From Lacihabitans soyangensis (lineage in GTDB: Bacteria > Bacteroidota > Bacteroidia > Cytophagales > Spirosomataceae): 64,000 bases of DNA. The notes below the pieces were generated by a model, which was not told the origin of the DNA, ran no database searches, and saw nothing but the letters and a program-made list of their open reading frames with translations. The position numbers and the translations under genes were made by a program. Location: contig NZ_RJUF01000183.1 in NCBI RefSeq assembly GCF_024343775.1, forward strand, positions 1 through 64,000, written 5' to 3'. Positions 48,827 to 63,278 of this stretch are shown piece by piece; the stretch's first letter is position 1, and each line of letters opens with the position of its first letter.

Positions 48827-48858
48827 TTTGATAGACTAAATAGATTACGCTACATTTG
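48827..48858 (+). promoter_or_regulatory. Promoter of the TonB-dependent receptor and its leader RNA
   Basis: TTTG (48827-48830), 20 bp, TACATTTG (48851-48858). Transcription would begin near 48865, giving a leader of about 165 nt before the receptor start at 49031. 48654-48826 between this and the phosphodiesterase gene holds nothing else recognisable. Confidence 0.7.
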
Positions 48859-48885
48859 TTAAATAATATAACCAGAATAAATCAA

Positions 48886-49030
48886 CGATGTTGTCTCTAA
48901 AATAATTTTTGAAAAAACCAGCCTGGCTGCAACCAGACTGGCGGATGCTTAACAAAAATAATATCATCGCTAAATGAGCTGCCTTGTGAAAGGCCAGTTT
49001 TCTTATTTTCAATTAAACAATTTCAAATTA
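48886..49030 (+). ncRNA. Structured cis-regulatory leader RNA, copy A
   Basis: CGATG (48886-48890) pairs with CATCG (48965-48969), enclosing a hairpin CCAG-C-CTGG / CTGCAA loop / CCAG-A-CTGG (48918-48941) and the sequence GGATGCTTAAC. GCTAAATGA follows, then GCCTT/AAGGC (48981-48994) with a T-rich tail like a terminator. The same arrangement occurs at 56237 before susC. I do not recognise an Rfam family. GCAACC and GCTTAAC superficially recall parts of the S-box core. Confidence 0.65.
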
Positions 49031-51730: not shown

Positions 51731-52120
51731 ATGGGATTTACAAAAAAGACAATTTACACCATTAAGGCATTGGTTTTTCTGAATAAAAAAGAGAGGCTGA
51801 TTAATGTTTCGGAGATTGTAAAAGGTACTGAAATTCCGAAAAAGTTTTTAGAGAGTATCATGCTCGAACTTAAAAAGAATGGGTTTGTGGAGAGCTTTCA
51901 AGGTAAATTAGGAGGATATAGGTTACTTAGAAAACTTGAAGATATTCCTGTTTTGGAAATATTAAACTTTACCGAGTGTAAGGTTAGGCTTACAACGGAA
52001 TGTGGCGAAAATTGCGAATGCATAAGCAAGGTAGACTGTAGGTTTAAGGCATTGAATCATGAGATATTATCTTATTATCTAAAAACTCTTCAGAACCTCA
52101 AAGTTCTTGATTTTGCCTGA
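51731..52120 (+). CDS. Rrf2-family regulator with a cysteine-rich centre
   Basis: 129 residues: winged HTH (about 5-65; YTIKALVFLNKKERLINVSEI) and dimerisation helix. TECGENCECISKVDCRF (near 94-110) is rich in cysteines, as in the Fe-S-binding Rrf2 proteins (IscR/NsrR type), unlike the sulfur regulator CymR, which has none there. It is next to bshB1 and the sulfatase locus, so a redox or sulfur role is plausible but unproven. The tRNA-like sequence lies in its 5' leader. Confidence 0.85.
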   Translation: MGFTKKTIYTIKALVFLNKKERLINVSEIVKGTEIPKKFLESIMLELKKNGFVESFQGKLGGYRLLRKLEDIPVLEILNFTECKVRLTTECGENCECISKVDCRFKALNHEILSYYLKTLQNLKVLDFA

Positions 52121-52321: not shown

Positions 52322-53065
52322 ATGAAAATTTTGATATTAATTGTTCTTTGTTCTTTTTCATTTTCGGGGTCATTTGCTCAAAGAATTACTCAAACTGACC
52401 AGCAATTGTGGTTGGGGTATTTTAATCAAATTCGTTTTAGCAATAAATGGGGTTTGTGGTTTGATACGCATTTTCGTACAACAGACCAATTTGTAAAAGA
52501 GCCTTCAAAGTTTTTGGCAAGAGTTGGTGCTATGTATTATATCAATGACAATTTGAAATTTACAAATGGGTATACTTTTGCTAATCATTTTCCCGAGGAA
52601 GCTCACCCAGAAATATCACAGCCTGAACACCGATTATGGCATCAGTTTCAACAGCACAATACATACGGAAAAGTTAGAACAATGCATTGGCTTCGCCTAG
52701 AAGAACGTTTTCGTAGAAATTATAAAGATAACCAATTGGTGGATGGGTACAGATTCGATGAAAGAATAAGAGCTAATTATTTGATAAACGTGCCTTTGAG
52801 CAAAAAAGGAATAGTCCCAAAGACATTTTCGGCGATTGTAAATGACGAAGTAATGCTGAACCTTTCAAAAAAAAATATTTACAACACCTTTGACCAGAAC
52901 AGGTTATTTGTTGGTTTAGCCTATAATGTTTCGTCACACTCCAATTTGCAATTTGGGTATATGAATGTGTATCAACAGCTTGCTGCTGGAAATAGATATT
53001 TGAATTTGAACACTATTCGAATATTTTATTTTCAAAATTTAGACTTCCGTAAAAAAGATAAATGA
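52322..53065 (+). CDS. DUF2490 outer-membrane protein (intact copy)
   Basis: 247 residues, signal peptide to about 20 (SGSFAQ), followed by a beta-barrel typical of DUF2490: QQLWLGYFNQIRFSNKWGLW, RLEERFRRNY and DQNRLFVGLAYNV. Likely a small porin. Shares a 4-bp overlap with its paralogue, and both precede bshB1. Confidence 0.85.
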   Translation: MKILILIVLCSFSFSGSFAQRITQTDQQLWLGYFNQIRFSNKWGLWFDTHFRTTDQFVKEPSKFLARVGAMYYINDNLKFTNGYTFANHFPEEAHPEISQPEHRLWHQFQQHNTYGKVRTMHWLRLEERFRRNYKDNQLVDGYRFDERIRANYLINVPLSKKGIVPKTFSAIVNDEVMLNLSKKNIYNTFDQNRLFVGLAYNVSSHSNLQFGYMNVYQQLAAGNRYLNLNTIRIFYFQNLDFRKKDK

Positions 53066-53813
53066 GAGTTCTTCACTCTCAGCAATCTAATTTGCTAATA
53101 ATTTTTTTTGTGGCAATTATCTGTTGTTCTGTTAGTTACGGCCAAAAGTCAGATTCCGTAGTGGTGGGAAATCAATTGTGGCTGGGTAACTACACAAAAA
53201 TCAGGTTTTCAGACCATTGGGGATTATGGCTGGAGCCGCATTTGAGAAGGACAGACAATTTCACCAACAAACCGTTTCAGACAGTGGCAAGAGTGGGGGC
53301 AATTTATTTTTGGATGATGCAAGTCAGCTGTTGGCTGGTTACACTTTTTCAAATTTTGGTTCTGAATACCAGCGGTTTAACGGTGTTGAAAACGAACAAA
53401 GAATATGGCAACAGTTCCAGTCTGCTTCATACCTAAGTAGAAGATTTAAACTTTCTCATTGGGTTAGACTTGAGGAGTGTTTTATGAATCAAGTCGTAGA
53501 AAGCAAATTTGAAATGCGTGCGAACGGAAATTTGAATTTTTCAGTGGATTTGGCATATTGGAAAAAGCAGAAAGGTATGTTGTCGATAGTGGTTTACGAT
53601 AATTTTTTCCTTTATCTGAGAAATGTCACTGCTGGACAAGACATTTTTGATCAGAACAGATTCTTTTTAGGATTGGCTTATCCGAGCAACAAGAGAAATT
53701 ACTTGCAAATCGGATATCTCCTTGTGAATCAGTTGAATAGAAATGAAGTCTATACAAGAAATCATAACATAGGCATTTATTGGTTTCAAAACATCAACAA
53801 TATTAAAAGATAA
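53062..53813 (+). pseudogene. DUF2490 outer-membrane protein, frameshifted copy
   Basis: Frame one begins MRVLHSQQ, has a signal peptide (to about 27, SYGQ) and reads QLWLGNYTKIRFSDHWGLWL up to VARVGAIYF. The homology then continues in the -1 frame (LDDASQLLAGYTFSNFG) to WFQNIN at 53813. The break is at a run of five T (53307-53311); six T would restore one frame matching the upstream paralogue. It may be a real mutation, a sequencing error or, less likely, a slippage site. No canonical slippery heptamer is present in the reading frame. Confidence 0.85.
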
Positions 53814-53817
53814 GATA

Positions 53818-54537
53818 ATGAAACTAGATATTTTATTTTTTGCAGCTCATCCAGACGACGTGGAGGTCGTAGCAGGAGGAATAATTTTGAAACACTTGGC
53901 ATTGGGTAAAAAAGTAGGTATAATTGATTTCACGTGTGGTGAGTTAGGCACTAGGGGCAATGCTGAAATAAGAATTATAGAAGCGACAATGGCCTCAAGT
54001 ATTCTTGGACTGAGTTATAGAGCTAACCTAAATTTTGCAGACTGTTTTTTCGAGGTCTCTAAGCCCAACATAATGAAGGTAGTGGAATGTATTCGTAAAC
54101 ATCAGCCCGAAATAGTCATCACAAACCCAGAAATTGATCGACACCCAGACCACGTGAGGGCATCAAAAATAGTGAAGGAGGCGGTTTTTATTTCTGGTCT
54201 TGAAAAAGTGACTACGCTAAATGAGTATGGCGAAAAGCAAATTCCGTGGAAGCCCAATTCTTTGCTTTACTACATTCAAGATACTTATATTGAACCCAAT
54301 TTATATTTTGACATTACGCCATTTTATGAAACCAAGGTTAAGGCCTTCAAGGCTTATAAAAGTCAATTCTTTGATCCAGAGAGCAATGAACCCGAAACTA
54401 TAATCTCAACCCCAGAATTTTTCAGAAGGGTAGAAGCCCGCAACATAGAATTTGGTAGAAGAATAGGAGTAAAATATGCTGAGGGATTGGTTAGAGAAAA
54501 GGCAATTGGTATCCACAGTTTGTTCGATGTGATTTAG
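53818..54537 (+). CDS. bshB1: Bacillithiol biosynthesis deacetylase
   Basis: LmbE/PIG-L-type zinc deacetylase that removes acetate from GlcNAc-malate, the second step of bacillithiol synthesis. 239 residues. Zinc motif AHPDD at 10-14, the GELGTRGN loop and HPDHVRAS with the second zinc histidine. Length and motifs fit BshB1. It lies 4 bp after the DUF2490 copy, so is probably in that operon. Bacillithiol consumes cysteine, which links the operon to the sulfur theme. Confidence 0.9.
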   Translation: MKLDILFFAAHPDDVEVVAGGIILKHLALGKKVGIIDFTCGELGTRGNAEIRIIEATMASSILGLSYRANLNFADCFFEVSKPNIMKVVECIRKHQPEIVITNPEIDRHPDHVRASKIVKEAVFISGLEKVTTLNEYGEKQIPWKPNSLLYYIQDTYIEPNLYFDITPFYETKVKAFKAYKSQFFDPESNEPETIISTPEFFRRVEARNIEFGRRIGVKYAEGLVREKAIGIHSLFDVI

Positions 54538-54672
54538 CGACATTTTTGTACTATTTCTATATATTTTTTTCGGTGATAGACTGTTTTGTAAAATAAACAA
54601 ATGATGCAAATAATTATAAGTCAACAATTTGTGTATTTTCACGAAACACAAAAATAAAGTTCAAGTTTTTGT

Positions 54673-54703
54673 TGCGATTTATTATTTATATAAATATCTT
54701 TGT
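54673..54703 (+). promoter_or_regulatory. Promoter upstream of the polycysteine leader
   Basis: TTG (54673-54675), 20 bp, TATCTTTG (54696-54703), matching the Bacteroidota consensus. Predicted start near 54710, 60 nt before the leader ORF. Confidence 0.65.
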
Positions 54704-54770
54704 CTATCGATTAAGTAGATTATTAAACTTGTTGCTGTTAACCACCAACAGCAAGTAAAAGAATCAAACA

Positions 54771-54860
54771 ATGAAAGATTTCTGTAATTATCCTCTTTTT
54801 GTGGTTAATCATTCCATTTCCATATTTGGCTTGACAAGCCGAATGTGCTGTTGTTGCTAA
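54771..54860 (+). CDS. Leader peptide ending in four cysteines (candidate attenuator ORF)
   Basis: A 29-codon frame starting MKDFCNYPLF and ending SRMCCCC then TAA; codons 26-29 are TGC TGT TGT TGC. It has no signal sequence and lies about 100 nt before the FGE gene. A run of four Cys codons immediately before a stop is very unlikely by chance. Known parallel: polycysteine uORFs in mycobacteria act as cysteine-responsive attenuators. Here ribosome stalling at low cysteinyl-tRNA would change the folding of the leader hairpins and raise expression of the sulfatase locus. The mechanism is inferred. Confidence 0.6.
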   Translation: MKDFCNYPLFVVNHSISIFGLTSRMCCCC

Positions 54861-54962
54861 TTTTCATTTCATCAATTCCGACATTTCCTAGAAACCACTG
54901 CTGAAGTAGTTTGGTGGTTAAATTGCTTTGGCAGCTGGTTCTGGGATATTAATATTCTCATT

Positions 54963-55790
54963 ATGAAATCACTTATATGTTTTTTGGGTTTGTTGTTGCT
55001 AACTAGCTCCATCACTGACAATCAAAGGTCTGTGGTGTTTGAAGGAGGTATTTTCAAAACAACCGACCCTGAAACCAACAGACCCAAGACTGTAAAAATA
55101 GGCAGCATTGAGGTTGATAGATATTTGGTTACTGTGGGCGAATACCAAGAATTTGTAAACACCACAGGTTACAAAACGCAGGCTGAACAATATGGGAATT
55201 CCATCATTTTTGATTCAAAAACCCAAAAATGGGAGTTAGTCGAAGGTGCAAACTTCAGGTTTCCGTTTGGGCCAAATGCTTCACCAGCTATTTTGAATCA
55301 TCCAGTGACGCAGATTTCATGGTACGATGCAGTGGCCTATGCCAAATGGAAAGGAAAAAGACTCCCAACTGACGCAGAGTGGGAGTATGTGGCCAAATCG
55401 AGAGGCAAATCAAAGGAAATTTATCCCTGGGGAAGTCAAGATTTTGTGGATGGGAAATATTTAGCGAATAGCTGGCAGGGGGCTTTTCCTTATTACAACT
55501 CTGGTGCTGACGGTTTTCTAACTACCTCACCAGTTGGTTTTTTTGGAGAGGATAGGTCGGGCCTCACCGACATGGGAGGCAATGTATGGCAATGGTGTCA
55601 AGATGCCGTTCAATCCACTGGCTGCAACGCTGAGGATGATTTGAGTGTAAGAAGAATCTGCCGTGGAGGGTCTTTTATGTGTGACAAAAATGTTTGTCAT
55701 GGATACAAAATCGGCAACCGCACCAACTCTACACCAGAGTCGGGCATGGTACATATAGGATTTAGATGCGTTAAAGATATTAAAATTTAA
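54963..55790 (+). CDS. Formylglycine-generating enzyme (sulfatase-modifying factor)
   Basis: 275 residues with a signal peptide (about 1-17), so it acts in the periplasm. FGE-sulfatase fold: ISWYDAVAYAKWKGKRLPTDAEWEY, GNVWQWCQD, RRICRGGSFMCD and C-terminal IGFRCV. The cysteines C240 and C245, five apart, correspond to the copper-binding pair of true FGE (C272/C277 in S. coelicolor), so it is expected to be catalytic, converting a sulfatase cysteine to formylglycine. Its substrate is the CAPTR site of the sulfatase at 60918. Confidence 0.9.
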   Translation: MKSLICFLGLLLLTSSITDNQRSVVFEGGIFKTTDPETNRPKTVKIGSIEVDRYLVTVGEYQEFVNTTGYKTQAEQYGNSIIFDSKTQKWELVEGANFRFPFGPNASPAILNHPVTQISWYDAVAYAKWKGKRLPTDAEWEYVAKSRGKSKEIYPWGSQDFVDGKYLANSWQGAFPYYNSGADGFLTTSPVGFFGEDRSGLTDMGGNVWQWCQDAVQSTGCNAEDDLSVRRICRGGSFMCDKNVCHGYKIGNRTNSTPESGMVHIGFRCVKDIKI

Positions 55791-55796
55791 AAGACC

Positions 55797-56234
55797 ATGA
55801 GTTTTGAATTAGAATGTCCAGTGGACTTTAAAACAATCGATGAAAACAAAGCCAGATTTACGGCTCTTTGGGTTTTCCTATTAACCATTACATTTTTGGT
55901 GGTTGAAAATTGGCTTCCTATAGGTCTTTTACTTTTTGACTTTAGTCTAAGGGCCTTTGAGTCTGGCAAATTTAGTCCATTAAATAAGCTGTCTGATTTC
56001 GTAATCAACCTCGTTAAAATTGATCCCAAACCAATAGATCAAGCACCTAAAATTTTCTCTGCTAAAATAGGCTGGTTTTTCTCCATTTCAATTATTGTGG
56101 CACTTTGGTTTGAAGGGTCCGATATTGCCATCATTTTGGCAGCTGTTTTAGCTCTTTTTTCATTATTGGAATCCTCCATTGGGTTTTGTGCGGGATGTTA
56201 TGTATATACTATTTTAAAAAAAATATTAAAATGA
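55797..56234 (+). CDS. DUF4395 membrane protein
   Basis: 145 residues: short N-terminal soluble segment with a cysteine (ELECPVDFKTIDENKAR), then four membrane helices; LESSIGFCAGCYVYTILKK holds the CxGC motif of DUF4395. It begins 6 bp after FGE, so is cotranscribed. The role is unknown; the cysteine pair and its neighbours suggest sulfur or thiol handling. A longer relative is at 14625. Confidence 0.8.
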   Translation: MSFELECPVDFKTIDENKARFTALWVFLLTITFLVVENWLPIGLLLFDFSLRAFESGKFSPLNKLSDFVINLVKIDPKPIDQAPKIFSAKIGWFFSISIIVALWFEGSDIAIILAAVLALFSLLESSIGFCAGCYVYTILKKILK

Positions 56235-56236
56235 AA

Positions 56237-56374
56237 CGATGTTGTAAAAAATAAAAAACCAGCCCGGCGGCAACCGAACTGGCAGAAGCTTAACCAAAAA
56301 CAAGTTCATCGCGAAATGAATATCGGAAACCAGGTTTCCAAATCTTATTTTTTAATTAAACCAATACAAAGTAA
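56237..56374 (+). ncRNA. Structured cis-regulatory leader RNA, copy B
   Basis: CGATG (56237-56241) pairs with CATCG (56307-56311). Inside, CCAG-C-CCGG / CGGCAA / CCGA-A-CTGG (56259-56282) aligns base for base with copy A; one inner T-A pair is C-G here, a compensatory change. GAAGCTTAACC follows, then GCGAAATGA and a GGAAAC/GTTTCC hairpin (56325-56339) with TCTTATTTTTT. A 20-codon frame from ATG 56316 ends (TGA) overlapping the susC start at 56375. Ligand and mechanism unknown. Confidence 0.65.
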
Positions 56375-59300
56375 ATGAAAAAAATTCTTTACCAGATATG
56401 CCTTGGCATTTTACTCATTCCATTGGCCGTTTCGGCTCAGGAAACCAAGCCTTTAATCAATTCAAAACTCGTCGGTAATATCATCGACCAAAAATCAAAA
56501 GAACCTTTAGTCGGGGCAACTGTTCAAATTAAGGGTACGACTCATGCTGTCACGACAGATGTCAATGGTAAGTTCTATTTTCAAACAGGTCAAAAGTTTC
56601 CTTATACACTGGTTATAAGTTTTATAGGTTTCAAAACCAAAGAAGAAATAGTAAATGAGGAGGCCGTAACTATTCAACTTGAAGAAGACCAAAAACTACT
56701 TAATGAAGTGGTGGTAATTGGATACGGTCAACTCTTGAAAAAAGATGTGACGGGCTCAATTGAATCGGTAAATTCACAAAGTATTAAAGCCGTTCAAACC
56801 AGTTTAGACCGGGCTCTGCAAGGAACAGTAGCTGGCGTAAATGTTACCCAAACTTCTGGTCAGCCCGGCGGTGGAATAAGCGTTCGGGTAAGGGGAGGAA
56901 GCTCAATTCAAGGTGGAAACGAGCCATTGTATGTTGTAGATGGATTTCCAATCTATAACTCTGACCAAAATGCTGGGGTGGCTAGTGGTTCAAATTCCAA
57001 TCCTTTAGCTTCTATTAATCCATCTGATATTGAGTCTATTACGGTTTTGAAGGATGCTTCTTCCACGGCTATTTATGGATCAAGAGGAGCCAATGGGGTC
57101 GTCATCATAACCACCAAAAAAGGAAAAACCAATGAGAACAGAGTAAGCTACGATGTAAGTTATGGTGTACAAAAGCTCAATAAGAAACTGGATTTGTTGG
57201 ATGCCAAAGGCTTTGCTCGACTGCGAAACGATGCTTTATTTGATTCTGCCCCAGCAAAAGGTAAAAACCAATATTTATCAGAGGAGCAAATAAACGCCTT
57301 GGGTGCTGGTACAGATTGGCAGGATGAAACATTCAGAAGTGCCAAAACTCAAAATCATCAATTGTCTATTTCTGGTGGAAGCCAAAGGACCAGATATGCG
57401 ATTTCTGGAAACTATTTCAACCAGGATGGCATAATAAAAAACACCGATTTTAATAGATACAGTGCCAGAATAAACCTAGACACGGATATCAACAGTAAGG
57501 TGAGATTCGGATTGAACCTGACAGGTACAAAAACTACCGCAGACCTTGCTCCAACTGGCTTAGTATCCGCGATAATTAGTATGCCTGCCACTGCAACTGT
57601 ATTTGATGCCAATGGAAACTATACACTCAGAAACCCATTTGAAAACATTTTCTCGAATCCCATAGCAGCATTAAATAAGCGAATTAACAATTCAAACGCA
57701 TACAGGGTCTTGGCCACAACGTATGGTGAATATGATATCATCGACGATTTGGTATTAAAGGTTTCATTTGGCACTGATATTCAAAACAATCGTGAGAATA
57801 GCTATTTGCCCACCTCTATTTTCGAAGGCTTAGCATTGAATGGGGAAGCAAGAATCGGATATTTCAATTCAAGCTCTTGGCTGAATGAGAACACCTTAAC
57901 CTACTCGAAGGCCATTCAAAATAAGCATTTCTTCAACATTTTAGCTGGTTATACCCAACAACGCAATACCAGAGAAATAGTGAGTACAGGTTCGCAGAAT
58001 TTTGTAACAGATGCACTGACTTACAATGCTTTGCAAAGTGGTAACACCCCTTTAACACCAGTATCCTCATCAAATACCTGGGCCTTAAATTCTTATTTGG
58101 GAAGAGTAAATTACAATTTCGAAGGTAAATATTTCGCAACGGCCAGTATTCGTTCGGATGGATCATCTCGTTTTGGTGTAAACAACAAATGGGGTTATTT
58201 TCCATCAGCTGCTTTGGCCTGGCAAGTGAGTAAAGAGAATTTCTTCTCACCACTTTCTGCTGCTATCAACAGTCTGAAAATCAGAGCTTCGTATGGCTCT
58301 ACTGGTAATCAAGAAATCGGGGAATATCAGTCGCTTTCCACCTTAGAAAGTGTAAAGTATATTTTTGGGGATCAAATTGTTACCGGGTTTCGACCTTCAA
58401 GAATCGCTAATAGCTTTTTGGGTTGGGAGCAAACCAATCAATTTGATGGGGGATTGGACTTGGGCATTTTGAAAAACAGACTTTTCTTAACCTTAGATCT
58501 TTATCAAAAAATCACCTCTAATTTATTGTTGGATGTTCAGATTCCATACACTAGTGGGCATACTTCTTCACTGCAAAACTTTGGATCGGTTAGAAACAGA
58601 GGTATAGAAGTAGGAGCTAACACCCAATTGGGTAGCGGAGCATTTTCTTGGTCTTCAAACTTCAATATAGCCTTCAATAAAAACGAAGTTATTCAAATAG
58701 GCAATGGAGCATCATTTTATACTTTCGGAAACTATATCGTGAAAGTGGGCGAGCCACTGGGTAGTTTTTATGGAGCAGTTACAGATGGTGTTTTACAAAA
58801 AGCAGATATCGAAACCAAAGGGAAACTGACTGGCAATGCCGTACCCAAAGCTGGCGATAGACTTTATAGAGATATCAATGGCGACGGAGCATTTACCACT
58901 GCGGCGGATAGAACAACCATAGGTACTGCTCAGCCCAAATTTACCGGAGGGTTTAATAATACTTTTAATTACAAAGGTTTTGAGTTAAATGTACTTTTTC
59001 AAGGGTCTTATGGTAACAAAATCTTAAACGGCAATGGTCAATCTTTGGAGCTTTTTAATGGCCAACAAAACGCTTCTATTGCTGCATTAGACAGATGGAC
59101 GGAAACTAACCCAAGCACCACCATTCCGCGTGCAAAGCTAGATCCTGCTCCAGTTTTCTCTGACAGGTATGTGGAGGACGGATCATTTTTAAGAGCCAAA
59201 AACGTAAGCTTAACTTATAGTTTGCCAAAACCACTTTTGGTAAAAGCAAAAATAGAAGCTGTAAGAATCAGATTGTCTGGGCAGAATCTATGGACATTGA

Positions 59301-59419
59301 CAAATTACACAGGCTTTGATCCGGAAGTTACGAACGGTAGCTCTATCTCGCCCGGAACCGACAGTGGTATTTATCCAACTTCCAAAACCTATTCTTTGGG
59401 CTTAAATCTAACTTTCTAA
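56375..59419 (+). CDS. susC: SusC-type TonB-dependent outer-membrane transporter
   Basis: 1014 residues: signal peptide (ending AVSAQ), carboxypeptidase-like domain (about 30-115; LVGATVQIKGTT), then plug with the SusC motif VVVIGYGQLLKKDVTGS and VRVRGGSSIQGGNEPLYVVDG, and the 22-strand barrel ending GLNLTF. Works with the SusD lipoprotein downstream to capture and import a compound, here probably sulfated. Its leader RNA and N-terminal domain resemble those of the receptor at 49031. Confidence 0.95.
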   Translation: MKKILYQICLGILLIPLAVSAQETKPLINSKLVGNIIDQKSKEPLVGATVQIKGTTHAVTTDVNGKFYFQTGQKFPYTLVISFIGFKTKEEIVNEEAVTIQLEEDQKLLNEVVVIGYGQLLKKDVTGSIESVNSQSIKAVQTSLDRALQGTVAGVNVTQTSGQPGGGISVRVRGGSSIQGGNEPLYVVDGFPIYNSDQNAGVASGSNSNPLASINPSDIESITVLKDASSTAIYGSRGANGVVIITTKKGKTNENRVSYDVSYGVQKLNKKLDLLDAKGFARLRNDALFDSAPAKGKNQYLSEEQINALGAGTDWQDETFRSAKTQNHQLSISGGSQRTRYAISGNYFNQDGIIKNTDFNRYSARINLDTDINSKVRFGLNLTGTKTTADLAPTGLVSAIISMPATATVFDANGNYTLRNPFENIFSNPIAALNKRINNSNAYRVLATTYGEYDIIDDLVLKVSFGTDIQNNRENSYLPTSIFEGLALNGEARIGYFNSSSWLNENTLTYSKAIQNKHFFNILAGYTQQRNTREIVSTGSQNFVTDALTYNALQSGNTPLTPVSSSNTWALNSYLGRVNYNFEGKYFATASIRSDGSSRFGVNNKWGYFPSAALAWQVSKENFFSPLSAAINSLKIRASYGSTGNQEIGEYQSLSTLESVKYIFGDQIVTGFRPSRIANSFLGWEQTNQFDGGLDLGILKNRLFLTLDLYQKITSNLLLDVQIPYTSGHTSSLQNFGSVRNRGIEVGANTQLGSGAFSWSSNFNIAFNKNEVIQIGNGASFYTFGNYIVKVGEPLGSFYGAVTDGVLQKADIETKGKLTGNAVPKAGDRLYRDINGDGAFTTAADRTTIGTAQPKFTGGFNNTFNYKGFELNVLFQGSYGNKILNGNGQSLELFNGQQNASIAALDRWTETNPSTTIPRAKLDPAPVFSDRYVEDGSFLRAKNVSLTYSLPKPLLVKAKIEAVRIRLSGQNLWTLTNYTGFDPEVTNGSSISPGTDSGIYPTSKTYSLGLNLTF

Positions 59420-59429
59420 ACTTAAAATC

Positions 59430-60878
59430 ATGAAAAATAAAATCATAATAGCTTTAATATCAATAAGTACGCTTGCCTGTAACTCATTGGAGGAAGTGCC
59501 TTTGGGTTTGGTTTCATCATCGACTTTTTACAAGAGCGATAAAGATGCTGATGCGGCGGTCATAGCTGTTTACAATGCCATCAACAACGGTCAGCATACG
59601 CTTTACAATCGATTGATACAGATAGGTACGGAAATGGCCACCGACGACTATGAGGCTGGTCCAAGAGCCAGAAATGCACATGTAAGAGCCTTATCAGGTC
59701 TTACACATGATCCATCCAACGACCGAATGCTGGAGTTGTGGAGACAGAGCTACGATGGCATTAATAGAGCTAATATTGCCATTGATAATATTTCTTCTAA
59801 TACAAATCTTACTGCCCAAACAGCCAAAAACTTGGTGAATGAAGCCAAGTTTTTAAGAGGTTTGCTATATTTTAATTTAGTTAGATGGTTTGGCGGTGTG
59901 CCTTTGGTGCTGCATGAAACTACCACTTTAGATGCAACTTCGTTGAATGTATCAAATGCTACAGAGCCTGCTGTTTATGACCAAATTATAAAGGATTTGA
60001 CAGATGCCGAAGCCTTGCCAATTCCAGGAAAAGAAACCATAAAAGGAAGAGCGACAGCTGGTGCGGCGAAAAGTTTGTTGTCAAAAGTGTATCTAACGCA
60101 GAAAAATTGGGCAAAAGCTGCCGAAAAAAGCAAAGAAGTCATAGACAGTGGCTGGTATGATTTATTTGCCAACTATGCCGATGTGTACAATGTGGCCACC
60201 AAAAATGGTAAAGAACATATTTTTTCGGCTCAATCTAAAGGCCTTACCAATTGGAACGGCAACATGTTGGCAGGTTCTTCGGCACCTTTTGTAGTGCCAG
60301 GCATCACGGGTGATTATGCCGATGCCCTGCACAAAGAAGGAAAACTATTTGCGGCTTTTGCAGAAACAGATAAACGCAAATACATCACTTTTGGAGTAGA
60401 ATTTGTGAGTCCAACGGATGGAAAAACTTACAAAACCGACCCGCATTTTAATAAGTATTTTGACCCAGCTATACCTACGACGCCTTATCAATCTTCTAAA
60501 AACACCCCAATCATTAGGTTTTCGGAGGTTTTATTGATTCATGCCGAAGCACTGAATGAGCAAAATTCAGGTCCTAATGACCAAGCTTATGCTGCGATAG
60601 ATAGAGTGAGAACACGTGCAGGCATTCCATTGCTCAAAACTACTTCACCAAGTCTTAGTCAGGCAGATTTTCGAGAGGCGGTTTTTGAGGAACGAAGAAA
60701 GGAGCTGGTTTTTGAGTATCAACGTTGGTTTGATTTGGCCAGAAGAGGTGCAGATTATTATGTTGCCAAACTAAAAGCTGCAGGAAAGACCAATGCACAA
60801 GCCAAACACATTCACTTTCCAATTCCCCAAAGAGAATTAGACCTCAATCCAAATCTTAAGCAGGTGGCAGGTTGGTAA
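59430..60878 (+). CDS. susD: SusD/RagB-family surface lipoprotein
   Basis: 482 residues. Lipobox TLAC (C17). Helical TPR-rich SusD fold: EAKFLRGLLYFNLVRWFGGVPL and the C-terminal FEERRKELVFEYQRWFDLAR signature. Sits on the outer surface and closes over the SusC channel. 10 bp after susC. Confidence 0.94.
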   Translation: MKNKIIIALISISTLACNSLEEVPLGLVSSSTFYKSDKDADAAVIAVYNAINNGQHTLYNRLIQIGTEMATDDYEAGPRARNAHVRALSGLTHDPSNDRMLELWRQSYDGINRANIAIDNISSNTNLTAQTAKNLVNEAKFLRGLLYFNLVRWFGGVPLVLHETTTLDATSLNVSNATEPAVYDQIIKDLTDAEALPIPGKETIKGRATAGAAKSLLSKVYLTQKNWAKAAEKSKEVIDSGWYDLFANYADVYNVATKNGKEHIFSAQSKGLTNWNGNMLAGSSAPFVVPGITGDYADALHKEGKLFAAFAETDKRKYITFGVEFVSPTDGKTYKTDPHFNKYFDPAIPTTPYQSSKNTPIIRFSEVLLIHAEALNEQNSGPNDQAYAAIDRVRTRAGIPLLKTTSPSLSQADFREAVFEERRKELVFEYQRWFDLARRGADYYVAKLKAAGKTNAQAKHIHFPIPQRELDLNPNLKQVAGW

Positions 60879-60917
60879 TTAAAATATTTTAGACTCGATT
60901 ATTTTAAACATTTAAAA

Positions 60918-62588
60918 ATGAAAAAAACACTTATAATATTTACTGCCATTTTGAGTCTTACAATTGCGGCTCAAGCACAAAAAAAGTCAAAAGTTCAGGA
61001 AGTTAAGCCAGACAGTCGTCCTAATGTTATACTGATTATGGTGGACGATATGGGATATTCAGACCTCGGCATTTATGGTTCTGAAATAGCTACGCCCAAT
61101 TTGGATAAATTGGCAACGCAGGGTCTTCGTTTACGTGAATTTTATAACAACTCCATCTGTGCCCCAACGCGAGCCTCTTTGTTGACAGGACAATATCAAC
61201 ATAAGGCAGGAGTTGGATATTTTGACGTCAACCTAGGTTTGCCGGCATACCAAGGCTTTTTAAACAAAGAGTCTTTGACTTTGGGGGAAGTTTTTCGTTC
61301 GGGTGGTTATAGCACGCTATTGTCTGGCAAATGGCATGTTGGTGATGACAGTTTAAGCTGGCCAAAGCAACGAGGTTTTGATAAATTCTATGGAATCCTG
61401 AAAGGTGGAGCAAATTACTTCAACACAAAGCCGCTTTACATTGGTGGTCAAAATGGGTACCCTGTCACGCTTTTGAAAGATAACACGCGTCAGTATCCAG
61501 CAGATGATTCTTACTATTTTACTGATGAGATAGGCAAAAACGCAATTGAGTTTTTACAGGAACAAAACAATGAAAAGAAGCCATTTTTCTTGTACCTAGC
61601 ATTTACAGCACCGCATTGGCCGCTTCAAGCTAAGCCCGAAGACATCGCTAAATACAAAGGAAAGTTCGATAAAGGGTGGGATGCATTGAGAGAAATAAGA
61701 ATAAATAAACTCAAAGAAAATGGCATTCTTTTACCAAGTCAAACCATAGCTGCCCGTGATCCTGAAGTGCCGGAATGGGATAAATTAACTTGGGATGAGA
61801 AGGATTTTTGGAAGAAAAAAATGGAAGTTTATGCCGCTATGGTAGACAACATGGACCAAAACGTAGGCAAAGTATTAGAAAAACTGAAAGAGCTTAAAAA
61901 AGATGATAATACCTTAATTATTTTCATTTCTGACAATGGAGCTCAGGGTGGTTTTAATACCTACAATCCTTTAAGAAGAGGAAAAGTTGTAAATGCTGGT
62001 CCTATTGGCACCTCAGGTTCATTTGACTATCAAGAACAAAACTGGGCATACTTATCCAACACTCCACTTCGTCAGTACAAAAACAATATGCATGAAGGTG
62101 GATTCAGTTCTCCATTTATTGCTTGGTTTCCTTCCAAAATCAAGGCTGGTAGAATAGACAAAGGCACAGGTCATTTGATAGATCTCGCTCCAACTTTTTA
62201 TGATTTAGCGGGAATAAAGTATCCTGAAAACTACAATGGTATCAAAACCAACCCACTGGCGGGTAAAAGTTTGTTGCCAGTATTGTTTGGAGATGCTTCT
62301 GAAGTAAATAGGGGCGAACCAATTTTTTGGGAAAGAGCGGGCAACCGTGCGGTAAGAGATGGCAAATGGAAGATTGTTTCCACCTTTCCAGCTTATAAAT
62401 GGGAGCTATACGATTTAGAAAACGACCGTGGTGAAACCAAAGATTTGGCAGAGGCTCACCCTGATGTGGTAAATAGACTCTCAACATCTTACAACCAATG
62501 GGCAGAAAAAACTGGCGTCGTAGAATACAGTAAAATTCGTCCCGGAAACGAACTAATACCTGGAGCTGCCGCACGAAGAAATCAATAA
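60918..62588 (+). CDS. Type I sulfatase
   Basis: 556 residues with a signal peptide (to about 20, AAQAQ). Removes sulfate from an organic sulfate ester. CAPTR (C81-R85) is the CxPxR motif; C81 must become formylglycine, presumably by the FGE at 54963. Calcium site aspartates are D43/D44 (MVDDMGYSD) and the HVGDDS / SDNGAQGG segments; LSGKWHVG supplies active-site Lys and His. Substrate cannot be told; related enzymes act on sulfated glycans or aryl sulfates. A terminator at 62605 ends the main operon here. Confidence 0.93.
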   Translation: MKKTLIIFTAILSLTIAAQAQKKSKVQEVKPDSRPNVILIMVDDMGYSDLGIYGSEIATPNLDKLATQGLRLREFYNNSICAPTRASLLTGQYQHKAGVGYFDVNLGLPAYQGFLNKESLTLGEVFRSGGYSTLLSGKWHVGDDSLSWPKQRGFDKFYGILKGGANYFNTKPLYIGGQNGYPVTLLKDNTRQYPADDSYYFTDEIGKNAIEFLQEQNNEKKPFFLYLAFTAPHWPLQAKPEDIAKYKGKFDKGWDALREIRINKLKENGILLPSQTIAARDPEVPEWDKLTWDEKDFWKKKMEVYAAMVDNMDQNVGKVLEKLKELKKDDNTLIIFISDNGAQGGFNTYNPLRRGKVVNAGPIGTSGSFDYQEQNWAYLSNTPLRQYKNNMHEGGFSSPFIAWFPSKIKAGRIDKGTGHLIDLAPTFYDLAGIKYPENYNGIKTNPLAGKSLLPVLFGDASEVNRGEPIFWERAGNRAVRDGKWKIVSTFPAYKWELYDLENDRGETKDLAEAHPDVVNRLSTSYNQWAEKTGVVEYSKIRPGNELIPGAAARRNQ

Positions 62589-62604
62589 TCCCTAAACCTA
62601 TACC

Positions 62605-62636
62605 GAGGGAGAACGAATCTTTCTTCTCCCTCTTTT
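62605..62636 (+). terminator. Terminator after the sulfatase gene
   Basis: GAGGGAGAA (62605-62613) pairs with TTCTCCCTC (62624-62632), then TTTT. The next gene begins 12 nt later, so read-through or a separate promoter is needed for it. Confidence 0.75.
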
Positions 62637-62648
62637 ACATCTTGTTTT

Positions 62649-63278
62649 ATGAAAAAACTAAGTTTTGTCTTTTTGATTATGCTCGGGAGTCTAAATGGAT
62701 ATTCCCAAGTTTTCAATTTGGTAGAAGAACTTCGAAAGGGAAAACTGGAGTTTGTACATAGACAGAATGATAAATTTGGTTTAAATAACATTAAAATATC
62801 AAAGGGTTCAGGAGAAGGCTTAGTTTGGCTGAGAAATAAGAAATTAAAGACTGGTACCATTGAAGTTGATATCAAGGGAGAAGATGTTTTTCAGAAAAGC
62901 TTTGTTGGAATTGCCTTTAATGGACAAAACGATTCTACTTATGAAGCCATCTATTTTCGTCCTTTTAATTTTCATGCCACGGATTCTGTTCGAAGGATTC
63001 ATGCTGTGCAATACATTGCTCATCCAAAGTATACTTGGAAGCACCTTCGAGAGTTTCGAAACGCAGAATTTGAAAAGGGCATAAAAAATGCACCAGATCC
63101 AAATGGCTGGTTTCATGCTAAAATTGTTGTTTTGCCGACTTCGGTTACTGTATATGTTGATAACAAACAAGAACCTTCATTGGTAGTTAATCGCTTAGTT
63201 TCGAATAAGAAAGGAACAATTGGTTTGTTTTTAGGAGATGGTTCAGGTGGAGAATATAAAAATTTAAATATTTATTAA
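62649..63278 (+). CDS. Secreted laminin-G/DUF1080-like protein
   Basis: 209 residues with a signal peptide (about 1-20, GYSQ). A jelly-roll-type fold is suggested by GTIEVDIKGEDVFQKSFVGIAF, YEAIYFRPFNF and the C-terminal GTIGLFLGDGSGGEYKNL, as in concanavalin-like and 3-keto-disaccharide hydrolase (DUF1080) proteins. No catalytic residue is firm. It may bind or act on the same glycan as the sulfatase locus. Confidence 0.65.
   Translation: MKKLSFVFLIMLGSLNGYSQVFNLVEELRKGKLEFVHRQNDKFGLNNIKISKGSGEGLVWLRNKKLKTGTIEVDIKGEDVFQKSFVGIAFNGQNDSTYEAIYFRPFNFHATDSVRRIHAVQYIAHPKYTWKHLREFRNAEFEKGIKNAPDPNGWFHAKIVVLPTSVTVYVDNKQEPSLVVNRLVSNKKGTIGLFLGDGSGGEYKNLNIY

Follow-up and report, generated by a model that had tools for sequence, protein, structure and literature searches.

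A putative cysteine-sensing leader peptide upstream of a sulfatase operon in Lacihabitans soyangensis and related leaders in other Bacteroidota

Translating ribosomes pause at codons for which charged tRNA is in short supply. In Actinobacteria, cysteine leader peptides with runs of Cys codons near the stop were predicted in 2005, and the excerpted text of that report describes no conserved terminator hairpins for the mycobacterial leaders (PMC1262725). Ribosome occupancy of a mycobacterial open reading frame (ORF) ending in Cys followed in 2015 (excerpt of PMC4633059), and Canestrari et al. reported cysteine-responsive attenuation in 2020, as cited in passages of PMC13236596 and PMC9094748; the former passage terms the M. 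smegmatis case translation attenuation. For Flavobacterium psychrophilum and B. thetaiotaomicron, transcriptomes have suggested attenuation of the leader-peptide type, but the relevant passages name neither a cysteine leader nor a sulfatase locus (PMC9723704, PMC7366714).

Here, we describe a short ORF at positions 54771-54860 in a 64,000-nucleotide stretch of DNA from Lacihabitans soyangensis (the window), together with similar ORFs from other genomes. Like the Actinobacterial leaders, as far as the excerpts portray them, these are short ORFs with a Cys run near the stop; the combination by which Actinobacterial-type attenuators are recognized, a short upstream ORF with a 3′ run of Cys codons in front of cys or related sulfur genes, is found here as well. 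In contrast to those leaders, the present ones belong to another phylum and precede other targets, namely sulfatase, SusCD and formylglycine-generating-enzyme (FGE) genes, and the leader in the window is, judging from its predicted promoter, probably not leaderless. The operator and the AACCACC/GGUGG pair described below are not mentioned for the Actinobacterial cases in the excerpts consulted.

The Bacteroid-trp RNA (RF01692), which we take to be a tryptophan leader, comes from the same phylum, but no Rfam 15 family reaches its gathering score in the window, nor an E value of 5 or below for positions 54500-55050. That RNA is described as a candidate cis-regulatory RNA of Bacteroidetes in the part of the source consulted (PMC2864571). 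Among the matches listed from the open PMC literature, outside which most subscription papers fall, there is no cysteine leader from Bacteroidota. This outcome agrees with an earlier interpretation of the same DNA made without database searches (the sequence-only reading), which knew of no described case in a sulfatase locus of this phylum. By this open-literature search, the leader, if real, would apparently be the first cysteine leader to be described from Bacteroidota, and likewise the first with a connection to sulfatase/SusCD loci. Desulfation of glycans would then be linked to cysteine supply, and not only to carbon supply.

We consider it likely that the ORF at 54771-54860 is translated and acts as a regulatory leader, sensing charged tRNA-Cys and gating the following operon by way of AACCACC/GGUGG RNA. 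Dozens of similar leaders in related soil bacteria suggest that these cells measure their cysteine supply by the success of ribosomes in translating the last codons of the peptide.

The leader region in the window and the genes behind it

The ORF lies on the forward strand, as do the promoter elements, operator and hairpins around it, the genes from FGE to sulfatase, the Rrf2-family gene and the candidate second leader described below, and reads MKDFCNYPLFVVNHSISIFGLTSRMCCCC-stop; it has 29 codons, the C-terminus RMCCCC, and a distance of 102 nt to the FGE gene on its 3′ side. Its four Cys codons, UGC UGU UGU UGC (54846-54857), are followed by UAA. This check of the sequence confirmed the frame ending Arg-Met-Cys-Cys-Cys-Cys-stop that the sequence-only reading had pointed out; enrichment of Cys at the end was assessed at the level of the class (see below). 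The ORF is intergenic, in a 425-nt gap between the FGE gene and a BshB1-type gene (53818-54537) that passes the NCBIfam cut-off for bacillithiol deacetylase. Elsewhere in the window, two overlapping ORFs in different frames (53062-53436 and 53217-53813) resemble the two parts of a single protein interrupted by a frameshift.

The operon behind the leader spans 54963-63278. By domain matches, it consists of an FGE-like gene (PF03781, 54963-55790) directly behind the leader, a DUF4395 gene (55797-56234), genes for a SusC-like TonB-dependent receptor (56375-59419), a SusD-like protein (59430-60878) and a sulfatase (60918-62588), and a last gene with a weak match to 3-keto-disaccharide hydrolase. 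No close copy of this operon was found in the family: the best value among the matches listed is 54% for the FGE gene (222 genomes) and 56% for orthologues of the DUF4395 gene (121 genomes). Because of this lack of a close copy, orthologous upstream regions are not comparable. In the window's own genome, the pattern TGYTGYTGYTGYTRA has four matches, and the three besides that of the window fall in protein genes.

A promoter from which transcription of the leader would start is predicted from a -7 box, TATCTTTG, at 54695-54702 (read from the sequence, coordinates checked). We assign this box to the type TAnnTTTG, presumably the consensus of the Bacteroidota -7 box; a GTTG at 54671-54674, also read by eye from the letters, is a possible -33 element. 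Of the consensus promoter claimed earlier for this ORF, the Bacteroidota-type box stands, whereas a sigma-70 scan lists no forward-strand site at 54695-54702. Overlapping the promoter at 54699-54721 is an imperfect palindrome, TTTGTCTATCGATTAAGTAGATT, that matches TTTGTCTATNNNNTNNRTAKRNT and is a candidate operator of the Rrf2 type. A gene at 51731-52120 encodes a member of the Rrf2 family, for which the superfamily cut-off is passed and the CymR and IscR equivalog cut-offs are not reached; its product may be the regulator that reads this operator. The operator is common to the other leaders described here mostly because it served as a search pattern.

Between the end of the predicted -7 box (54702) and the leader ATG (54771) lies a conserved hairpin, P1 (54727-54757; -9.1, or -9.4 with flanks), with AACCACC (54740-54746) in its apical region. 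Another hairpin (54821-54847, -13.7 kcal/mol) lies inside the ORF and reaches the first Cys codon. The long hairpin P3 (54886-54946, -32.7) stands between the leader stop and the FGE start, ends 16 nt before the FGE start codon and carries GGUGGUU at its tip; the fold of 54886-54962 has an energy of -33.3 and a z score of -6.84. The loop of P1 has complements at two places. The Val-Val codons of the ORF contain GUGGUUAA (54801-54808), which is complementary to UUAACCAC of the loop (duplex, -11.0 kcal/mol) and gives the window's ORF copy the form GUGG, not GGUGG. The second complement, GGUGGUUAA at the tip of P3 (54913-54921), would pair with UUAACCACC of the loop (-15.6 kcal/mol). By chance, a loop complement of 9 nt is expected in 54757-54962 in 0.1% and one of 8 nt in 0.55% of cases (2000 shuffles).

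Recurrence of leaders ending in cysteine

In 390 genomes of the order, the pattern RM-CCCC has eight matches in seven genomes, including that of the window. The others were rejected: five (L002, L005, L006, L007 and L008) coincide in part with protein genes, L004 consists of nothing but the five codons of MCCCC, and the intergenic frame of L003 ends MCCCCWR with no fitting gene behind it. In a search of 222 genomes for CCCC followed by a stop, 30 loci were read from among the matches listed, and three of these have a started frame (L135 and L143, which overlap genes, and L144, which is intergenic). At 20 further CCCC-stop places, the only convincing leader is L167, the same locus as L144. This search led to the leaders L144/L167 and L146, both of which have the promoter of the window. 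The former reads MNFNSSGKKTTTMVAKSKDLPHSKSCCCCC, has an AACCACC loop and precedes three sulfatase-like genes and a putative binding protein, recognized only by a sub-threshold match to PBP_like_2. The latter ends in QQFCCCC, has the loop GACCACC and lies in a sulfur locus. Operator and loop are also present at L102, a leader that ends in PASQCCC.

The pattern TTTGTCTATN{14,44}AACCACC matches 73 of the 222 family genomes, concentrated in one genus and often with several copies per genome; in many other genera the matches listed have no palindrome and look like chance. Among nine other genomes of the window's genus, seven have no match and two (G423 and G444) have one that lacks the palindrome. 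Because these close relatives have no proper match, the argument for the window copy builds on the class and not on close orthologues. A stricter operator/loop pattern, run on named genomes, yielded 68 stretches: 59 in Dyadobacter, three in Rhabdobacter roseus, two in Chitinophagaceae MAGs, and one each in Emticicia, a Cytophagales MAG, a Flavihumibacter MAG and Longirhabdus, the last probably by chance. Dyadobacter is a member of the Spirosomataceae, and many of its genomes carry several copies of the leader, a recurrence that provides a testable regulon, operator and candidate RNA switch in culturable soil strains. Leaders ending in Cys occur in Dyadobacter, Rhabdobacter, Emticicia, the Flavihumibacter MAG and one Chitinophagaceae MAG. 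The sequence-only reading had been staked beforehand on conservation of the Cys codons in homologous loci, and leaders with the same operator and loop do end in Cys runs in several genera. As judged from their sequences, these leaders of Spirosomataceae and some relatives are a family with a shared promoter/operator, an AACCACC hairpin, an ORF of about 30 codons ending in Cys and, usually, GGUGG.

The enrichment of Cys was quantified on 156 operator sites (L101-L102, L144-L167 and L185-L332, with the window site as L292), which were reduced by 8-mer similarity to 105 non-redundant sites, 88 of them with the loop motif within 70 nt. The first ATG ORF has 20-60 codons at 74 of these 88 sites (shuffles: mean 48.9, maximum 60). 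Cys is among the last three residues in 56 of the 74 ORFs, and Cys-Cys among the last six in 51, as compared to 5.2 (maximum 11) and 0.3 (maximum 3) on average in 200 dinucleotide shuffles. The share of Cys is 48% in the last five residues versus 3.4% in the peptide body, and both Cys codons are in use (TGT 121, TGC 49). At the 17 operator sites without the loop, seven such ORFs occur and none ends in Cys. Counted against the leader reading are the 14 of 88 loop sites that have no ORF by this rule, the 18 of 74 first ORFs that have no Cys in the last three residues, and the occurrence of the operator without a Cys ORF in front of sulfur genes. At L225, L243, L252, L264 and L268, operator and AACCACC stand about 61 nt before the gene of a 129-aa protein, with no Cys leader by rule.

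In the MKAKD group, the gaps between the conserved start block and the MVV...CC block, likewise conserved, measure 9, 15, 21 or 24 nt, multiples of three in all seven gapped rows; the other two of the nine rows are ungapped. The middle of the leader peptides is not conserved, and the excess of synonymous changes is modest (206, 176 and 125 versus 145.5, 151.8 and 92.1 expected), as would follow from a peptide sequence that is largely unconstrained.

Proposed pairing of the AACCACC loop and competing explanations

RNA elements were analyzed on the 60 leaders whose last six residues include Cys. The ORFs of 45 of them contain GGTGG, compared to a mean of 3.5 (maximum 10) after permutation of codons and of 17.7 (maximum 27) after synonymous recoding, which keeps the Val-Val residues. 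In 42 of the 45 the motif is in one frame, at a median of 16.3 codons before the stop (IQR 15.3-17.3), and the AACCACC loop lies a median of 42.5 nt upstream of the leader ATG. In leaders with Val-Val (33 cases), the first of the two codons is GTG in 32 and stands behind a G in 29, with no fixed choice of the second codon; this bias is expected of selection on RNA for GGUGGU, the complement of the AACCACC loop. The flanks of AACCACC form more pairs than shuffled flanks (7.7 versus 3.9, 60 leaders). On these comparisons, AACCACC and GGUGG are the conserved pair of putative partners.

The pairing is uneven across leaders. GGTGG is missing from 15 of the 60, for example from L146, L272, L320, L325 and L328, and the best helix between loop and ORF surpasses codon permutations at p < 0.05 in only 33 of 60 leaders and at p < 0.01 in 14 of 60. 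Covariation between loop and ORF can be judged on few sites because most were found by patterns that fix AACCACC: L301, with the loop AGCCACC and GGTGGC in the ORF, provides one clear double change, and L323 and L348 keep the pairing via wobbles. In the binding-protein group, RNAalifold pairs UAUGGUG of the ORF with the region of the gene start, which is a hint only because none of the pairs shows a double change.

A later GGUGGUU follows within 230 nt 3′ of the ORF in 15 of the 60 Cys leaders, including the window's. The loci contain 29 non-redundant sites of the type UCGGUGGUUG, of which 26 were aligned and three dropped by eye; most of the aligned sites form a long hairpin with the motif at its tip. 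Compensatory changes are seen in 13 of the 16 consensus pairs, in an alignment that is not structure-aware. The covariance model R1, built from this later hairpin alone and blind to Cys, found 13 places in 10 of 61 family genomes. Eight of these have a Cys leader upstream, five by rule (L339, L341, L343, L347 and L349) and three more on reading, their CC being more distant from the stop (L337, L340 and L348). Since L339 and L349 share one leader, these amount to seven distinct leaders, among which L343 (...LLRCCRCCC) is the only one from a genus not used for R1; L242, which was used, shares sequence with L291 of the genus g16, to which L341 also belongs. The remaining places are L338 and L342, which have an operator-like site before them but no Cys ORF; L344, inside a gene; L345, without leader-like surroundings; and L346, without GGTGGTT by script. 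R1 does not match the window hairpin at 54886-54946, and the window thus has the loop but not, by R1, the same hairpin family. A weak R1 match (E 3.2) lies at 55892-55922, inside the DUF4395 gene that is second in the operon.

We propose the following mechanism. At short supply of cysteine, the ribosome would stall on the Cys run and the sulfatase/SusCD/FGE operon would be on, releasing and importing sulfur. With ample cysteine, the ribosome would finish the peptide and leave, and expression of the operon would be damped. The AACCACC loop most likely pairs with GGUGG of the ORF: while a ribosome occupies the Cys codons, this motif would lie about 36 nt upstream, outside the footprint, and be free to bind the loop. 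Once the ribosome has gone, the loop could enter the stronger pairing with the later GGUGGUU near the gene start in the window and 14 other leaders, such that the position of the ribosome would select between the two partners. The core device must nevertheless function without the later GGUGGUU, since this motif is absent from most leaders. Sites resembling terminators occur 3′ of the ORF in 1 of 60 leaders, compared to 2.2 in shuffles (five shuffles); given this absence of intrinsic terminators, Rho-dependent termination or translation initiation at the first gene would be the likelier output. With slightly more doubt than conviction, we propose further that these leaders form a regulon-wide class of cysteine sensors new to Bacteroidota, in which an ORF with a Cys run gates a loop-loop switch, AACCACC pairing either with GGUGG of the ORF, nearly constant in its distance from the Cys codons, or with the GGUGGUU hairpin before the operon, and in which SAM and cysteine are read jointly in two genomes.

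Classical transcription attenuation, with the Cys-run ORF controlling an intrinsic terminator/antiterminator in cis as in trp, strikes us as improbable. The window offers alternative pairings for such a device (P1 arm with Cys codons, -12.1; loop with ORF, -11.0; loop with P3, -15.6) and a terminator-like hairpin at 54821-54847 that runs into U-rich Cys codons. However, this hairpin is the single terminator-like site in 54200-55800, as compared to 1.3 expected, and it lies inside the ORF; the scan of the window lists none downstream of the leader ORF, P3 has no U tract, and the scarcity of such sites behind the 60 leaders does not support an intrinsic terminator as output. That the P1 arm could re-pair with the Cys codons, as the sequence-only reading had proposed, is feasible in the window, where AACAGCA and UGCUGUU give 8 bp and -12.1 kcal/mol, but such re-pairing is not a property of the class. 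Across the 60 leaders, the 3′ arm of P1 scores 11.3 on average with its own Cys end and 11.4 with those of other leaders, and helices of at least 7 number 9 versus 8.5 expected. We rejected this pairing as a conserved mechanism, since own Cys ends fit no better than foreign ones. Another explanation, which we regard as unlikely, is a structured RNA with the GGUGGUU hairpin as an aptamer for a protein, small RNA or metabolite, the Cys ORF being secondary or a means of tuning. The compensatory changes in the later hairpin, the sharing of the operator with SAM riboswitches and the GGUGGUU hairpins that stand behind the operator without a Cys ORF (L313, L316, L322, L338 and L342) would fit this explanation, but the strongest signal is the Cys run, the second GGUGGUU is found in only a quarter of the Cys leaders (15 of 60), and R1 passes over the window.

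That the ORFs encode functional small proteins, such as thiol- or metal-binding peptides, and not leaders appears quite improbable to us. N-termini are shared within groups (MKAIIL, MKSMDRYSS, MKAKDVLL) and binding of metal by Cys runs is conceivable, but the free middle of the peptides and their modest synonymous excess do not point to a selected protein. The Cys run moreover sits at the stop, at a near-fixed distance to the RNA element, and the placement before sulfur operons fits cis regulation. Least credible is a chance ORF, with the CCCC frame as a by-product of a hairpin arm rich in TGYTG: the 5′ arm of P1, TTGCTGTT, does resemble Cys codons, and the leader is not found in other genomes of the window's genus, but dinucleotide shuffles never come near the Cys counts of the class, and leaders of the MKAIIL type, despite P1 stems of a different sequence, keep Cys at the end.

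The long hairpins with a GGUGGUU tip and no Cys ORF are a candidate structured RNA in their own right. Two of them, L316 and L322, precede genes that resemble sulfatases by eye, and the hairpins of L313, L316 and L322, the three loci tested, have no match in Rfam.

Sulfur genes, SAM riboswitches and a second candidate leader

Of 61 proteins listed behind Cys leaders, 57 were analyzed and four left out by hand; at 22 of the 60 leaders, no gene of at least 100 aa lies within reach of the sequence examined. Pfam assigns 15 of the 57 to sulfatases, nine to TonB plug, nine to FA_hydroxylase, four to SusD and one, the window's own, to FGE, plus single others. Between the sulfatase of the window and its seven best matches, identity is 63-66%; each of the seven is encoded at a locus that carries the same operator, and three of these loci (L224, L267 and L270) also have a Cys-ending ORF by rule. 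A conserved small ORF, ATGACA..GCTGACGT, stands behind the GGUGGUU hairpin of leaders of the MKAIIL type (L203, L216, L222, L262 and similar). It precedes an FA_hydroxylase-like gene and looks like a small membrane protein (alignment A1).

SAM riboswitches (RF00162) stand behind the same operator in six loci, whereas the covariance model of this aptamer has no match in the window. At L288 and L289, with leaders as in L102 and L101, the SAM match covers 1528-1620 and AACCACC is the loop of a riboswitch helix, which we take to be the P3 of the riboswitch; an ORF with a Cys run (QCCC and QCYC) lies 3′ of it. In these two genomes of one related genus, the leader would read both signals and may be a two-input leader. 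If true, such SAM-riboswitch chimeras would be a natural example of this arrangement.

A smaller second Cys leader is a candidate at 48856-48900, before the TonB receptor gene at 48974. Relatives of the same genus encode MNQRCCL in front of this receptor; the window has ATA in place of ATG and would start at TTG or ATA, and a rule that accepts only ATG gives no ORF in the window copy (L065). In two genomes of the same genus, the orthologue of this receptor gene precedes genes of the sulfite reductase and PAPS-reductase type, recognized by Pfam at L098 and by likeness at L099, neither of which has a clear Cys leader. Of 30 regions upstream of TonB receptors, 13 contain an ATG ORF whose last three residues include Cys (mean of mononucleotide shuffles, 3.6; maximum, 9), a count that is supporting only because L072, L082 and L085 look incidental and redundancy was left in. 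Finally, very short ORFs in which Cys is terminal or nearly so, followed by a hairpin, are seen in relatives upstream of the counterpart of the receptor gene at 48974 (L066, L067, L070, L078-L081, L088, L091 and L093); they read MNQRCCL, MNLKIICC, MNLKIICKN, MNLKIIC and ...RQYLFC.
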